Below, one piece after another: positions 2,094 through 64,000 of a DNA stretch of 64,000 nucleotides (position 1 is its first letter; every line of letters begins with the position of its first letter). Origin of the DNA: Vibrio fortis (GTDB taxonomy: Bacteria > Pseudomonadota > Gammaproteobacteria > Enterobacterales > Vibrionaceae); the NCBI RefSeq assembly GCF_000695685.1, contig NZ_JFFR01000013.1, forward strand, positions 186,001 to 250,000, written 5' to 3'. The translations under genes were made by a program, and so were the position numbers. Below the pieces are notes generated by a model. That model ran no database searches, was not told where the DNA came from, and saw only the letters and a program-made list of their open reading frames with translations.

Positions 2094-3113
2094 ATGACTT
2101 CATCATCCAGCTTAACCGTTATTAATGAAGAAGATCGAAAGAATCGATTCATCTCATCCATTTTGTTTTCTAGAGCAACGATTTTTCATCCCGCATCTCG
2201 GTTAACGTCAACTATGCAGTCCAAGTTGGTTGAGATTGCGCAAAATGGTGGTACGGATCTTAACTATCCATTAGAAAGTGTGAACATCAATAGCTACGGT
2301 AAAAATTTTAGAGTTGATCTTCATGTTGACTATTTGCTGCAACCTCACCGCGATATCTTAGAAACAATGTTGGCTTACGCACAAACGATCCAACTGGATG
2401 ACTCTTCTTATGAAGCTGGTGCACGACTGACTTGGTCACAGGTATATCAAACAATTACCGATGGCGATGTTTCGGATACACAAGAGGATGGCTTTGATTC
2501 ATTTATTGATCGAGATGCAACCGTTCTATCGATGAGTATGTATGAATTGGCTACGCGAATGGGCATGGCAACGACACGAGCTAACTACGATCAAATTGAG
2601 CGCAGAATCACTCAATTGGCAACTGCACATCTAGTGATCAACGAACTCGATGATGATCAAAATGTCGTCGGTAAAAAACCACTAGAGTTTGTACAAGATT
2701 ACCGATTCTATTGTGATCGTAGTAAATTCAAAACTGGTCGTAAGACAACCAAGAACTTAACCAATCATGTATTTTTGGTTCCTGATATGCGTCTGCTGCA
2801 GGCCATTCGTGATCACGGTTACTATTACCGACTCGAACAACACAAAATGACGAACTACAGCAAGCCGTCAGTACGCTCATTTTTGAAATACATAACCACA
2901 CATAAAGCTGAGTTTCTGCATAACAAGAAGTTTGAGTGGGCGCTTGATAGCTATATTCAGTCTATCGCTTCGAAAGTCAGCCACAGCTTCCGTAGTGATC
3001 TTAGAAAAGATCTTTTAGCAAATGCAGTACAAATTGAAAAAGACTTCAGTCTACAATTCCGAGATGTCGGAAATGGTATTCAAATTTTCTATATCGGAGA
3101 AAGTGAATCATGA
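2094..3113 (+). CDS. iteron-binding replication initiator (Rep, winged-helix type)
   Basis: A 339-residue protein immediately downstream of the iteron array. An early FHPASRL motif (about residues 33-39) and the segment MYELATRMGMATTRANYDQIERRITQLAT (in two parts, about residues 153-182) look like the TrfA/Rep-type winged-helix initiator fold, in which a helix-turn-helix is followed by a long recognition region. The Rep should bind the iterons, open the AT-rich origin and recruit helicase. ATG at 2094 is preferred over ATG at 2088 because the AGG at 2083-2085 is then 8 nt away. The gene overlaps the next one by 4 nt (ATGA), so the two are translationally coupled. The exact Rep family is not certain; it is not RctB of vibrio chromosome 2. 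Confidence 0.8.
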   Translation: MTSSSSLTVINEEDRKNRFISSILFSRATIFHPASRLTSTMQSKLVEIAQNGGTDLNYPLESVNINSYGKNFRVDLHVDYLLQPHRDILETMLAYAQTIQLDDSSYEAGARLTWSQVYQTITDGDVSDTQEDGFDSFIDRDATVLSMSMYELATRMGMATTRANYDQIERRITQLATAHLVINELDDDQNVVGKKPLEFVQDYRFYCDRSKFKTGRKTTKNLTNHVFLVPDMRLLQAIRDHGYYYRLEQHKMTNYSKPSVRSFLKYITTHKAEFLHNKKFEWALDSYIQSIASKVSHSFRSDLRKDLLANAVQIEKDFSLQFRDVGNGIQIFYIGESES

Positions 3114-4027
3114 TAACTCAGTCTCTTGATACGCTGATGTCGTCACGTGCAAGTCAAGAAATGAGCTTTAGCTTAAAAGGTTTACTTAAAGGTCATGTTG
3201 GGATGTTGATAGCAGCTCCTAATGTCGGTAAGTCTCACTTAGCACTGTGTATCGCTATGGAACATGCTTCTTCGATGACGCTATTGGGTATGAGTGCAGC
3301 TGATAGGCCCGCCAAAACACTGGTCTTGAGCTCGGAGGATGGGGCGGGTGTTATTCAAACCAGAATGAAAGATAAGCTAGCTAGTTGTACTCCTACAATT
3401 CGCTCTGAACTGAAGAACAACTTGCACTTCATGACCGATATTGAGCCTATCGTCATACCACCTGATTGCTCACACCAAGAACAATTAGAGCATCAACAAT
3501 ACTTGGCTCAACTTAAAGAAACATTCGCTCAATTTGACCTAGTGATCATCGATACCGTAACTGAAGCAATCGGGCGATGTGAGGAAGTGAAGCACGACAG
3601 ATTGATTAAGAATGTGTTTCAGGCGCTAGCCAATGACTCAGGTGCAAGCCTATTACTAGTTCACCACGTGAACAAAGATGAAATTCGTGGCAATCAAGAG
3701 ATAACCATGGCGTCTGGAGCAGGGCTTACATCGGTAATGCGTTTGACCAAGTGTTTATTTACTTTGAAACGCAGCAAAGACTTAATGTCGATTAAGTACC
3801 TGAAAAGTAATTATCTACCAGAAAACGAGAATCAAGAGTTTGCGGTTGAGGTTCGCCAAAGCCTAACTATAAACCCTGAGTTGTATAATCCAAAAGCGCG
3901 CGCGAGCAGCAAAGGTGTTAGGACGACGACTCGAATTAAAGCCGCGCCAAAATCTATTACACTGTCCGGGACCATCCCCGAGCAGGAAGAGATCGAAGAG
4001 CGCAAGAACTTGCGTGATGTTCTCTAG
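3110..4027 (+). CDS. RepA-like hexameric replicative helicase / RecA-fold ATPase
   Basis: A 305-residue RecA-like ATPase. Walker A is APNVGKS at residues 36-42. The Walker B strand FDLVIIDT carries Asp148, and a VHHVNK sensor segment follows at about 184-189. The last 50 residues are basic and low in structure. This order matches the RSF1010 RepA / AAA_25 group, ring helicases that plasmids encode beside their initiator. The start overlaps the Rep stop codon, so the two are made together. It would unwind the origin after Rep binding, which may reduce dependence on the host DnaB. The enzymatic class is well supported; hexamer formation is by analogy. Confidence 0.82.
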   Translation: MITQSLDTLMSSRASQEMSFSLKGLLKGHVGMLIAAPNVGKSHLALCIAMEHASSMTLLGMSAADRPAKTLVLSSEDGAGVIQTRMKDKLASCTPTIRSELKNNLHFMTDIEPIVIPPDCSHQEQLEHQQYLAQLKETFAQFDLVIIDTVTEAIGRCEEVKHDRLIKNVFQALANDSGASLLLVHHVNKDEIRGNQEITMASGAGLTSVMRLTKCLFTLKRSKDLMSIKYLKSNYLPENENQEFAVEVRQSLTINPELYNPKARASSKGVRTTTRIKAAPKSITLSGTIPEQEEIEERKNLRDVL

Positions 4028-10120: not shown

Positions 10121-10663
10121 GTGATTAATAGTATTTTCAAGAACTACCTTGAATTGTATGGCGAGCCCACTCGTAAAGCTAAATATAAATCTCCAGATGG
10201 AAAAGTGATTCAGATTTTTAAGTGGGACGAAGATCAGACCGATGAGGGGGTAGTGATGTATGCAACGATGGGAGCAAGCATTACTCTTGGAGATAAAGAA
10301 GAGAGCTGCGAGTTCTTTATCGGGTTAACGCCGGATGCGGATGATATAGCCGATGCGTTAGCTGAAGTTGCGTTATATGGGAATGGCACTACCCATGTAC
10401 CAAATAGTGGAGATACGGTTACGTTATCTTATGACCTCTGGCATGGTACCAAGGCAAGATCTTTTATGTTTACAGATGGGGATGAGATAGTTCCGTCAAC
10501 AAAGGATGAGCATGGTAGACAGATTTGGTTTATTCAACTGGTGCCCTTATTTGAAGAAGAATTAAGTTATAAAAAAGAGTATGGAGAAGATGCTCTCTGG
10601 GGTGCGTTTGAAAATGCTGAAGTGCCTTATTGGAGCTCGTCGAGATCGAGTTTATTTAAGTAA
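10121..10663 (+). CDS. suppressor-of-fused (SUFU) domain protein
   Basis: A 180-residue acidic cytoplasmic protein. The central block from EFFIGLTPDADDIADALAEV to SYDLWHGTKARSFMF (about residues 67-120) and the later IWFIQLVPLFEEELSYKKE resemble bacterial SUFU-domain proteins. In bacteria this fold is known as an immunity protein of polymorphic toxins and also occurs alone. No toxin gene lies next to it, so if it is an immunity gene it is an orphan. The start is GTG at 10121, supported by AAAGAGG 8 nt upstream; no ATG alternative fits. It sits in the AT-rich patch between 9.1 and 11.2 kb. Confidence 0.6.
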   Translation: MINSIFKNYLELYGEPTRKAKYKSPDGKVIQIFKWDEDQTDEGVVMYATMGASITLGDKEESCEFFIGLTPDADDIADALAEVALYGNGTTHVPNSGDTVTLSYDLWHGTKARSFMFTDGDEIVPSTKDEHGRQIWFIQLVPLFEEELSYKKEYGEDALWGAFENAEVPYWSSSRSSLFK

Positions 10664-61355: not shown

Positions 61356-61667
61356 ATGAACATTGAAGAGATGCGCGACAACGCAAATGAAACTGCCGAG
61401 TTTTTAAAATCGATGGCTCACCCCGACAGGCTGATGGTTTTGTGTCAGTTGAGTAATGGTGAAGTAGGCTTCACGGAGTTGCTCGAGTCTTCCCATCTAA
61501 GTCAATCTGCATTCTCACAACAGCTCACCGTGCTCAAAAAGAAGGGCTTGGTGAAAGTAAGAAAAGAAGCGCAGCAAGTGTTTTATTCGTTAGCCGATGA
61601 CCGAGTCATGATGTTGATGGGATCACTTCACAGCGTATTTTGTAAACATCAACAAGAGGAGAAGTAG
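61356..61667 (+). CDS. BigR/SqrR-type persulfide-sensing ArsR-family repressor
   Basis: A 103-residue ArsR-fold protein (FLKSMAHPDRLMVLCQLSNG, SHLSQSAFSQQLTVLKKKGL, RKEAQQVFYSLAD). Cys30 and Cys96 are 66 residues apart, exactly the distance of the redox pair (Cys42/Cys108) in BigR, which forms a tetrasulfide when exposed to persulfides. It should repress the CoADR gene and its own operon through the two AATTAG/CTAATT sites. The stop touches the start of the following transporter gene. Confidence 0.9.
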   Translation: MNIEEMRDNANETAEFLKSMAHPDRLMVLCQLSNGEVGFTELLESSHLSQSAFSQQLTVLKKKGLVKVRKEAQQVFYSLADDRVMMLMGSLHSVFCKHQQEEK

Positions 61668-62090
61668 ATGGAGTTTTCAATGCCTTGGCATGCGCTGGCT
61701 GGTGGTGCCTTGCTTGGCTTGTCCGCAGGTCTACTCATGTTATTTAGCGGTAAAGTCGCTGGTATCAGCGGGATTTTGGGTGGATTGCTTACCCCGAAAG
61801 CGGGAGACCTATTATGGCGAGTGCTGTTTCTGTTTGGCATGGTGATCAGCATAGTATTTACACGCCCAATTGGTTTTGAATTGCCGGATTTAAGCACAAT
61901 GAATCTAGGCTTGGTTGTGGTTGCCGGTGTATTGGTTGGTATGGGCACACGCCTAGGCAATGGCTGTACTAGTGGACATGGCATTGTTGGCATGGGTCGT
62001 TTCTCTAAACGCTCAATCGTCGCGACCTGTACCTTTATGATTGTCGCGATTGTCGTTGTATTTGTTCGTCGTAACTTGGGAGTGCTATAA
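61668..62090 (+). CDS. YeeE/YedE-family half transporter (PmpA-like)
   Basis: A 140-residue membrane protein with about four helices and the signature GTRLGNGCTSGHGIVGMGR around Cys103. YeeE-family channels import thiosulfate through conserved cysteines. It is half the size of YeeE; the next gene gives the other half. Start directly at the end of the BigR gene, so it belongs to the same operon. Confidence 0.88.
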   Translation: MEFSMPWHALAGGALLGLSAGLLMLFSGKVAGISGILGGLLTPKAGDLLWRVLFLFGMVISIVFTRPIGFELPDLSTMNLGLVVVAGVLVGMGTRLGNGCTSGHGIVGMGRFSKRSIVATCTFMIVAIVVVFVRRNLGVL

Positions 62091-62513
62091 ATGAATCCTA
62101 TCTCTTTGTTTGTCGCTCTTTTGTCTGGCGTACTTTTCGGTGCTGGAATGAATATCTCTGGTATGGTCGACCCTGCTAACATCTTTGCGTTTCTCGATAT
62201 CACGGGGGATTGGGATCCGAGCCTTGCGTTCGTGATGGGAGGAGCTTTGCTCGTATTCACGCCTTTCTACCATTTCATTATTAAACCTCGCAGTAAAACC
62301 ATTGATGGCAATGCTATTAGCCTGCCTACGAATACAAAGATTGACCGCAAACTGATTTTGGGCGCATCTATTTTTGGCCTAGGTTGGGGAATAGGCGGTA
62401 TTTGCCCAGGGCCAGCGGTCGCCAGTTTGGGCGAGGGCAGCATTACCATCATCTCATTCATTGCCAGTATGCTGATTGGCATGAAGTTGGTTACTTTAGT
62501 CTCGAATAAATAA
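62091..62513 (+). CDS. YeeE/YedE-family half transporter (PmpB/DUF6691-like)
   Basis: A 140-residue membrane protein with about four helices. GAGMNISGMVDPANIFAFLD and GWGIGGICPGPAVASL carry the YeeE-type GxxxxxPGP motif. With the upstream protein it would form a complete sulfur-compound channel. The start codon follows the upstream stop without a gap. Confidence 0.88.
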   Translation: MNPISLFVALLSGVLFGAGMNISGMVDPANIFAFLDITGDWDPSLAFVMGGALLVFTPFYHFIIKPRSKTIDGNAISLPTNTKIDRKLILGASIFGLGWGIGGICPGPAVASLGEGSITIISFIASMLIGMKLVTLVSNK

Positions 62514-62613
62514 CTGTACACTTCTGAACTGATCTGCCCGACTCTAAATATGCGCTAGGTTTTTTATTGCTAGATTCAAAGTCAGTTTAACGAACTCGAA
62601 TCGAATGCAAAAA

Positions 62614-63596
62614 CTATGGATTTGTTTTGTGGCTTGCAATAGATATTTTATTCAGTGGGCTTACAGTACCTGCGAAGTGTTTACCAATGACATGCGTATA
62701 GATTTGTGTCGTTGCGACATCTGAGTGGCCTAGCAATTCTTGAACAGTACGAATGTCTTGTCCAGAACGTAGTAACTCAGTTGCAAAGCTATGACGAAAA
62801 GTATGGCAGGTGATTCGCTTATTAAAGATCTTTGCCTGTTGTACAGCACGTTTTAAGGCCTTTCGTGGTGATGAGTCGTGTAGGTGATGTCGGCAGAGTT
62901 GATTGGTTAGTGGATGTCTAGAGATAGTTGTTGAAGGGAAGATAAACATCCATGAACTTTGTTTAAACGCGTTGGGGTACTTTTTACCAAGAGCATGAGG
63001 CAGCAAAGGGCCGATACCTTGTTTATTATCATTTTTTTGTATTGTTGATACTCTGTCTATTTGCTGTTGGAGTAATGAAATTATGACGGGGCTTAGTAAT
63101 GTCACTCGATCTTTTTTACCTTTCCCATCACGTACTGTTAACGACAAGTTAGTGAAATCTAGGTCTTGTATTCTGAGTCGTAAACACTCACTGATTCTTA
63201 ATCCTGATCCATAAAGCAACGAAAATATTGTGTGATTCACACCCGATAGATGCGAGAGAATAGCCTGCACTTCGTTGGCTGTTAGAACGTTTGGTAGTTT
63301 GCGTGGTTTTTTGGCATAGGTAAAACCTAAATCCCCTAATGGTAGTTGTAAAAATTGATTGTAGAGGTAAGCAATTGCGTTGAGCGCAACTTTTTGAGTG
63401 TTAATTGCTACGCACTGCTCGTTAGCAAGATAAGAAAGAAAAGCCGTTACTTCGCTTTCGCCTATATCTTTTGGATGTTTGAGTTTATGGAATCGGATGA
63501 AGTATTTTATCCAGTATAAGTAGGCCTTTCGGTCTTGAGACTGTATCCTCGCATTCGCATGTGTCGGCGAATTTCTTCCAAAAATTTGCTGGCCAT
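62614..63596 (-). pseudogene. intI: integron integrase IntI, frameshifted
   Basis: A tyrosine recombinase of the integron type, 327 residues if intact. It has catalytic Arg in YGSGLRISE, HTFRHSFATELLRSG, LGHSDVATTQIYTHV and the extra IntI-specific helix LPHALGKKYPNAF that other recombinases lack. The ATG at 63596 has a very strong RBS (AGGAGGT, 4 nt spacer). After ASKFLEEIRRHMRMRGYSLK the frame breaks near 63527-63529: one A appears missing in GAAAGG (expected GAAAAGG), and the rest continues in the other frame without further stops up to TGA at the end. Mutation or a homopolymer sequencing error is possible. Confidence 0.88.
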
Positions 63597-63611
63597 CGTC
63601 ACCTCCTCTCT

Positions 63612-63627
63612 CTGTTTATTTATACAG
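63612..63627. promoter_or_regulatory. LexA (SOS) box in the intI promoter
   Basis: CTGTTTATTTATACAG fits CTG-N10-CAG of the LexA box, 15 nt before the intI start codon. SOS control of integron integrases is known, and the position here is as expected. Confidence 0.75.
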
Positions 63628-63870
63628 TTTATTGGAGTTAGATTCGGTTTGAGTATGAAAAATGGCTTGTTTTGCCGAGAGTCTAGTCTCGTTTAGTTGA
63701 TAGAGGGTTCGATAAGCTATTGTTATCTATATGATTCGCGCTATTTCTTCCTAGGGTAACGCGCATTGTCAAAAAGTGATAACACGCGTGCTCGTTTTTA
63801 TGTAAAGACAAAATGCGAAACGTGAAGTATATGCATTATATCTCAATGATTTATGATAGTTTTAAGACAA

Positions 63871-63877
63871 GTTAGGC
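63871..63877 (+). other. candidate attI recombination site core
   Basis: GTTAGGC fits the integron core consensus GTTRRRY, 275 nt to the right of the intI start, where attI should lie. The crossover would fall between G63871 and T63872. The surrounding DRs were not verified. Confidence 0.55.
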
Positions 63878-63932
63878 AAGCAGAAAAACGAGCTGGCTTG
63901 TTATTAACAATGTTATGTACTTGGAGAGAAAT

Positions 63933-64000
63933 ATGGATTTTCTCGTAGGCGTAGACCTTCAAGATTCATTTGTTTTGGGGTGGAACTACTGCGATCAAAC
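63933..64000 (+). CDS. first integron cassette gene (5' part)
   Basis: ATG at 63933 with GGAG 6 nt upstream; the frame is open to the window end and codes for DFLVGVDLQDSFVLGWNYCD after the Met. It lies just after the candidate attI, pointing away from intI, the place and direction of the first cassette. Too short to name. Confidence 0.5.
   Translation, partial: MDFLVGVDLQDSFVLGWNYCDQ

Follow-up and report, generated by a model that had tools for sequence, protein, structure and literature searches.

A decayed integron platform on a Vibrio megaplasmid, a probable member of a mobile family with IntI2-clade integrases

The window, the 64,000-nucleotide stretch of Vibrio fortis DNA analysed here, covers positions 186001-250000 of contig C13, which is 250,474 bp long. 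The assembly comprises 33 contigs and 5.29 Mb, and its relatives are Vibrio. The integron platform at the right end of this contig is real. Its parts stand in order: an exact LexA-type box, the integrase gene intI, attI and a cassette ORF that reads rightward, with an attC site beyond (Table 1). The locus thus combines an intI gene that matches TIGR02249, although its frame is broken, an attI with a crossover and cassettes bearing attC.

Table 1. Features of the integron platform and of the replicon that carries it, in window numbering (a dot marks a feature without strand)
Feature	Position	Strand	Remarks
Iterons of plasmid origin	1675-2031	.	
Plasmid replication protein (Rep), 341 aa	2088-3113	+	Assigned by position and conservation; annotated elsewhere as hypothetical or as mismatch repair protein
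RepA-type helicase (AAA_25)	3110-4027	+	
Left plasmid backbone: ArsR-type regulator and two YeeE/YedE genes	61356-62513	+	Genes named as annotated in pTHAF190c_b and pLMG21557
Eroded left end of the integron unit	62524-62540	.	CTGAACTGATC-TGCCCG; TGCCCG at 62535-62540, after the YeeE stop
intI, integron integrase	62614-63597	-	TIGR02249, 378.7 bits (cut-off 265); in the clade that holds IntI2
attI region	63605-63912	+	Ends at the crossover between G63912 and T63913
LexA-type box, CTGTN8ACAG	63612-63627	.	CTGTTTATTTATACAG; directly upstream of the intI start
Inverted repeat in attI	63779-63904	.	24-bp arms, ~80 bp apart, at 63779-63802 and 63881-63904
GTTAGGC flagged in the preliminary description	63871-63877	+	Inner attI; variable among copies
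First cassette ORF	63933 (or 63915)-64292	+	Ends beyond the window; 63933-64000 within it
VCR-like attC, 122 bp	64289-64410		Outside the window; 148.5 bits with a model of 14 sites, this one among them

The sequence CTGTN8ACAG, which we take to be a LexA-type motif, occurs twice in the window, once at the platform. Among 40 distinct copies of attI (loci whose match reached the crossover, not all matches), the box was exact at the matching distance in 16 and within one mismatch in 25, compared with 0 of 39 copies in a control window at one mismatch or fewer. Because the likeness among the copies ends between G63912 and T63913, with G/TTA there in 37 of 40 and differing sequence beyond, the crossover was placed at this junction. 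The preliminary description had seen the box, a GTTAGGC in the position of attI and the rightward ORF in their normal order. The order of box, intI, attI and ORF holds, but GTTAGGC is ruled out as the crossover: the junction lies 41 bases further on, and the heptamer, found five times on the plus strand of the window, is kept at this position in only 11 of the 40 copies. The arms of the inverted repeat in attI are conserved, 79% of cells pairing across 39 copies versus 34%–48% when the arms are slid. Yet double changes fall in 16 cells, against 4–18 in the slid versions, and a DNA hairpin was rejected, covariation being no higher than in these controls. The repeat may be a dimer-binding site.

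The first cassette ORF showed no Pfam match. The attC site begins 289 bases beyond the window, and the contig stops 64 bases after it, at 64474, 474 bases past the window. More attC sites were found on contigs C10, C21 and C24 of the same genome. The expectation that attC sites and cassettes would follow to the right is therefore borne out, and neither an absence of attC nor a conserved chromosomal gene in the place of the first ORF, the two outcomes named beforehand as fatal, was encountered. Two lone attC matches also lie on C13 (161933-162045 and 174572-174692; L097), 75–88 kb from the integrase and outside the array.

The frame of intI is broken near the N-terminus. The frame that holds the start codon is a 31-aa ORF (63507-63602), and that of the body, open to 62614, lacks a separate start codon in its N-terminal part. 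IntI4 (2a3v) is the best PDB match, to which the body aligns from residue 23 with an E value of 1.6e-76. This gene is the only match above the TIGR02249 cut-off in the genome. Matches resembling attI on C24, C9 and C14 (the last partial) stand without an intI above that cut-off, and tblastn found no intI remnant at those on C24 and C9. In the sister plasmid pTHAF190c_b, the locus has kept attI, the LexA box and approximately 80 bases from the start of intI, the rest of which is deleted; an array of ∼12 kb with ten attC matches, one of them weak, follows attI, and attC matches were also noted near 98 and 99 kb of this plasmid. intI is lacking in 31 of the 40 attI copies, which means here that similarity to intI extends over no more than 44 residues in a leftward stretch of up to 1.8 kb (shorter for two copies). 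Some of these copies retain the end site described below together with the LexA box. An error of sequencing or assembly in a platform that is in fact active could also explain the break, as the genome is a single draft assembly in many contigs and the remainder of the frame is open and aligns to IntI4. We regard such an error as unlikely, since the loss of intI from the sister plasmid and from 31 of 40 copies fits decay.

In a tree of 82 rows, the integrase joins copies from V. halioticoli, V. gangliei and V. chagasii in a clade of 6 rows (support 100/100), which is nested in a clade of 14 rows (99/99) and then in one of 41 rows (99/98). The largest of these also takes in IntI2, Marinomonas, two integrases of Shewanella plasmids and 13 further rows from Vibrio. 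The commoner Vibrio integrases, including a third one of V. chagasii, form a separate clade of 31 rows (100/98) that would represent the superintegron type, IntI4 itself not being a row of the tree. Placement of intI in a tree, suggested earlier, has thus put it with the V. halioticoli, V. gangliei and V. chagasii copies, in the clade that holds IntI2, and not with the commoner Vibrio type. With its integrase outside the 31-row clade, the platform does not look like a relocated Vibrio superintegron, and that reading was rejected. IntI2, the best-known relative among the plasmid matches, is 61% identical to the window integrase, far from the near identity that would make this a class 2 integron.

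The replication protein was found in 35 plasmid records, 33 of them from Vibrio, and belongs to no Pfam family. It is 100% identical to one on plasmids of V. pelagius, V. fortis and Vibrio sp. THAF190c and 95.3% identical to that of the 65-kb plasmids of V. anguillarum, presumably of the pJM1 type. The first 25,000 bases of the window (1-25000) match the complete plasmid pTHAF190c_b (518,670 bp) over their full length in three pieces at 95.6%. Across C13, matching pieces longer than 700 bp follow the order of the plasmid and account for 103,825 of the 250,474 bases, in a comparison that left out bases 440,001-518,670 of the plasmid (the last 78,670) and hence most of C13 1-96,000. C24 matches the same plasmid as well, as does the part of C14 that was compared, its first 20 kb, and parts of C10 and C21 match the region of its cassette array. 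Because Rep, backbone and order agree with complete circular plasmids, the sequence comparison places the integron on a megaplasmid that is colinear with pTHAF190c_b, its sister plasmid of 0.52 Mb, over the parts compared. The replicon of plasmid type with an iteron origin, proposed in the preliminary description, is confirmed by the identity of Rep and by this colinearity. The ArsR-type and YeeE/YedE genes of the backbone are also present in pLMG21557 of V. fortis, where no integron adjoins them. The plasmid further encodes a SUFU-domain protein (10121-10663; Pfam 46 bits).

A sedentary superintegron of the chromosome, on the same contig as an integrated plasmid origin, would suit the genus and the VCR-like attC sites on other contigs. 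It is already contradicted by the match to circular plasmids and by an integrase that lies outside the commoner Vibrio clade, with no second intI above the cut-off, and we consider it extremely improbable. Likewise, two hallmarks of a sedentary chromosomal integron are absent, the integrase being of another clade and the location a plasmid instead of a chromosome.

Sequence comparison shows that a near-identical unit of intI and attI recurs at different places on plasmids and chromosomes. Two copies are present in V. chagasii LC2-408 and three in V. gangliei, two of the latter on pVgang and one on contig C1 (2.6 Mb). Within each of these species the copies are 99.3%–99.9% identical over 1,392–1,507 bp, and identity between the two is 98.9% over 1,393 bp. 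The flanking sequences differ, except that two V. gangliei copies have 115 bp more in common. One boundary of the unit is the attI crossover, with differing cassettes beyond; the other lies 83–84 bp past the intI stop and, read toward attI, starts with TGCCCCAAAG. The integrase frame is open in one of the two copies in pIAM14596 (V. halioticoli) and in both in pVgang (L107), where such an open-frame relative adjoins qnrVC7 and fos cassettes. The proposal that the mobile unit ends at the attI crossover, so that only 1.4 kb would move, was dropped once a conserved 3′ segment was found: in the arrays of several relatives, the last attC is followed by TTACTTTCCCATAC...CTAATTTAGTAATATAACTGACTCACTTT, which leads into TGCCCC or TGTCCA. 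The array end on C24 bears a faint resemblance to this segment, and blastn found none of it in pTHAF190c_b.

A search with the attI region matched 36 of 227 Vibrio genomes at E ≤ 1e-6. Two or three attI matches, some partial, were among the matches listed for 20 of these 36 genomes, at most three candidates being scored per genome. Two Marinomonas genomes (L019/L022 and L020/L023) each carry two intI-attI units that are 86%–90% identical over 1.3 kb; no GGGGCA occurs within 400 bp past their intI genes, that is, they are without a TGCCCC end. C24 and C9 have a sequence in common beside attC (L099:1-939 and L102:10028-10966, 97% identical) within which both contigs end, and which resembles an IS110/IS1111-type transposase.

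Where it is kept, the outer end of the unit is a site of 30 bp with inverted arms around TGCCCC (CTAR-N8-TGCCCC-N8-YTAG). In 2.97 Mb chosen around such loci, the strict pattern had 15 distinct matches, versus 1, 2, 0 and 0 with scrambled centres. In 61 genomes it had 84 matches, spread over 34, and the reversed pattern had 1; the 84 include repeats, namely of a region that G003 has on its chromosome and on a plasmid and of two regions on the chromosome in G018. The TGCCCC site is enriched across Vibrio. Among attI copies lacking intI, 12 of 30 had it, with no more than 2 deviations in the arms, in the interval 300–560 bp before the crossover, versus 1/30, 0/29 and 0/29 in controls further out; the other 18 have no recognisable site at the expected place. 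Copies with intI had it 1,340–1,480 bp before the crossover in 5 of 9, compared with 0 of 9 in the control. Where it follows intI, the distance from the stop codon is 83–95 bp. This holds for V. chagasii, V. gangliei, a further two Vibrio genomes and one Shewanella plasmid; one of these sites has arms 2 off. Downstream of intI genes outside the 31-row clade, it was detected in 5 of 49, or 7 when the two V. chagasii copies are counted, which the strict test missed because their arms are 13 bp, and in 0 of 31 genes of the commoner Vibrio type. At three loci (L256, L268 and L269) the site recurs beyond attI, in the first two with an unchanged left arm; the right flank of L269 resembles the end of a further unit. 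It also flanks modules free of integrons, for example restriction genes and KAP ATPases. At L106 near 13040 and L154 near 9812, a sequence starting with GTGCGAC abuts the ends TTCGGGGC and TTTTTGTCC; to us it resembles the 5′ end of a group II intron, as if introns insert at these ends.

In the window itself, the sequence of the unit starts at 62541, and ∼36 bp of the end of V. halioticoli type are absent. What remains is a degenerate TGCCCG that fits the 30-bp site poorly. The end in pTHAF190c_b is recognisable, TGCCC-AAAGTTAACTAG, 430 bp before its crossover. As both the ends and the state of intI differ between the two, the unit of this plasmid lineage appears to have lost its integrase and part of its end in different ways. 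Since the left end is eroded and the intI frame is broken, the copy in the window is probably a relic, which would gain cassettes only if an integrase were supplied. The suggestion of a mobile or secondary array is accordingly supported as to mobility for the integron family and not for the window copy itself.

These distributions bear on a simpler account, in which an ordinary plasmid-borne integron was carried in by homologous or illegitimate recombination or by an unrecognised transposon, TGCCCC being merely an insertion hot spot of other elements in Vibrio. The integron-free modules at such sites, the 18 of 30 intI-less copies and the majority of related intI genes that have no site, and the degenerate site of the window all agree with it. 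Under this account, however, one would not expect the nearly constant distance between intI stop and site wherever the site is present, copies that are alike up to the site and different beyond it, or a conserved 3′ segment that leads into a second site. Weighing the two sides, we find a hot spot improbable, though it deserves serious consideration.

Near TGCCCC sites, a short tyrosine recombinase recurs as an ORF of 197 aa with PF00589 as its sole Pfam match. At E ≤ 1e-20, 94 of 223 Vibrio genomes encode it, and none was found in this V. fortis genome. The best 30 loci include 18 close homologues, with at least 76% identity to the query; in 14 of the 18, a site lies 137–164 bp upstream on the same strand (arms at most 2 off). 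In the 12 more distant ones, the site stands just after the gene in 4. A site adjoins 13 of 16 copies of the recombinase in a set of 14 loci, which were picked partly for nearness of the recombinase to a site or attI and include some of those just counted, so that this is not an unbiased rate. In two genomes (G019 and G122), integrons stand in tandem with short-recombinase elements.

Break points of the kind expected were also observed in conjugative plasmids. Up to GGGTAACTCAAAAA-TGCCCC, identity between pVPH2 and pAQU1 is 98.9%; beyond it the two are unlike. With a 701-bp query, the match stops 0–3 bases after TGCCCC in 7 of 25 records of pAQU1 type, continues through a common next module in 16 and is partial in 2. 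Five plasmids have one left side and four different right sides at this site. Breaks at a single 6-bp centre with variable arms are, as far as sequence can tell, the trace that a tyrosine recombinase would be expected to leave. The short recombinase, linked to the TGCCCC sites by position, is the candidate enzyme that would act there. Two other candidates were set aside. Phage-type integrases occur close to the V. chagasii copies, at differing distances from the two ends. A three-gene element between two inverted TGCCCC sites (L315:5742-10388, in G044), which codes for a tyrosine recombinase of 432 aa and for proteins of 277 aa and 568 aa, the latter SMC-like, and which resembles the Gamma-Mobile-Trio, is rare as a source of recombinase (at E ≤ 1e-30 in 4 of 61 genomes, a set with 37 Vibrio) and was not found in the site-rich genomes G003 or G018.

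Taken together, we favor, with a probability of roughly 0.7, the reading that the locus, on a Vibrio megaplasmid, belongs in decayed form to a family of mobile integrons with IntI2-clade integrases that move, or once moved, as modules at TGCCCC. In a healthy member, IntI, under the LexA-type box, would recombine the attC of a cassette with attI at G/TTA. The integron unit as a whole would move, or would have moved, by site-specific exchange at the TGCCCC overlap, presumably catalysed in trans by the short (∼200-aa) tyrosine recombinases that stand beside the same sites in many Vibrio genomes. A wider and more tentative proposal, to which we give slightly less than even chances, is that Vibrio and its relatives possess a second cassette-like exchange system, in which FimB-sized tyrosine recombinases shuffle modules of ∼0.4–10 kb between the 30-bp TGCCCC sites, with integrons as cargo. 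The other cargo would comprise restriction systems, defence-type ATPases and toxin-antitoxin pairs, and the arms of the sites would be variable. The attI copies without intI, which measure 0.34–0.52 kb from end to crossover, look like miniature elements and may be cargo too. If whole integrons are indeed cargo of such a system, one recombination system moves the platform of another.

Known mobile integron classes ride Tn402, Tn7 or ICEs; IntI2 is borne by Tn7. The window integrase is like IntI2 in belonging to the 41-row clade and unlike it in sequence, host and attI. Similar to what is seen here, IntI2 is almost always inactivated, and the possible LexA box of class 2 platforms is not bound by LexA, according to one report (PMC8946536). 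The integrons of V. halioticoli pIAM14596 and V. gangliei pVgang agree with the window copy in integrase clade, attI and crossover but differ from it in their open integrase frames. The Vibrio superintegron of IntI4 type has VCR-like attC sites in common with the window, and the IntI4 structure is the best PDB match of the window integrase. Yet the 31-row clade taken for its type does not hold the window integrase, and none of the 31 genes has the downstream TGCCCC site. The pdif modules of Acinetobacter plasmids work alike, in that they too lie between short sites of recombination whose centre is 6 bp, but they use the host XerCD and Xer arms; the arms of the TGCCCC site are unlike dif. SEs, found on plasmids and chromosomes of Vibrio, are tyrosine-recombinase elements whose end motifs are imperfect inverted copies and whose spacer is 6 bp long (PMC9345347; PMC10214605). 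They carry intA-tfp-intB-srap, whereas the candidate for the TGCCCC sites is one short recombinase. Their spacer comes from the donor at one end and is hence variable, whereas TGCCCC is constant at all sites counted, in part because the searches required it.

Earlier accounts describe up to five integrase genes, with relatives in Vibrio, in one Shewanella strain (PMC9229058) and blaGMA-1 on pVgang (PMC10782965). Another gives nearly a third of intI genes as pseudogenes, with only 4% in Vibrio, and more than one intI in over a fifth of integron-bearing lineages (PMC2426708). Multi-copy and broken integrases are therefore already known. The literature covered, mostly titles and openings of abstracts and excluding preprints and most subscription papers, contained no description of TGCCCC sites, dispersed attI copies or the short recombinase. 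Integron units with defined ends that carry a module site thus appear to be new, no earlier description having been found.

The findings point to a marine family near IntI2 in which the platform itself is repeated through genomes with defined ends, intI often being lost and attI kept. This would offer a concrete path, open to testing, by which marine integrons reach plasmids and bears on how a sedentary integron becomes mobile; one member already stands on a plasmid with qnrVC7 and fos cassettes. The TGCCCC site may also serve as a simple marker of module boundaries in Vibrio plasmids, including the conjugative ones of pAQU1 type.
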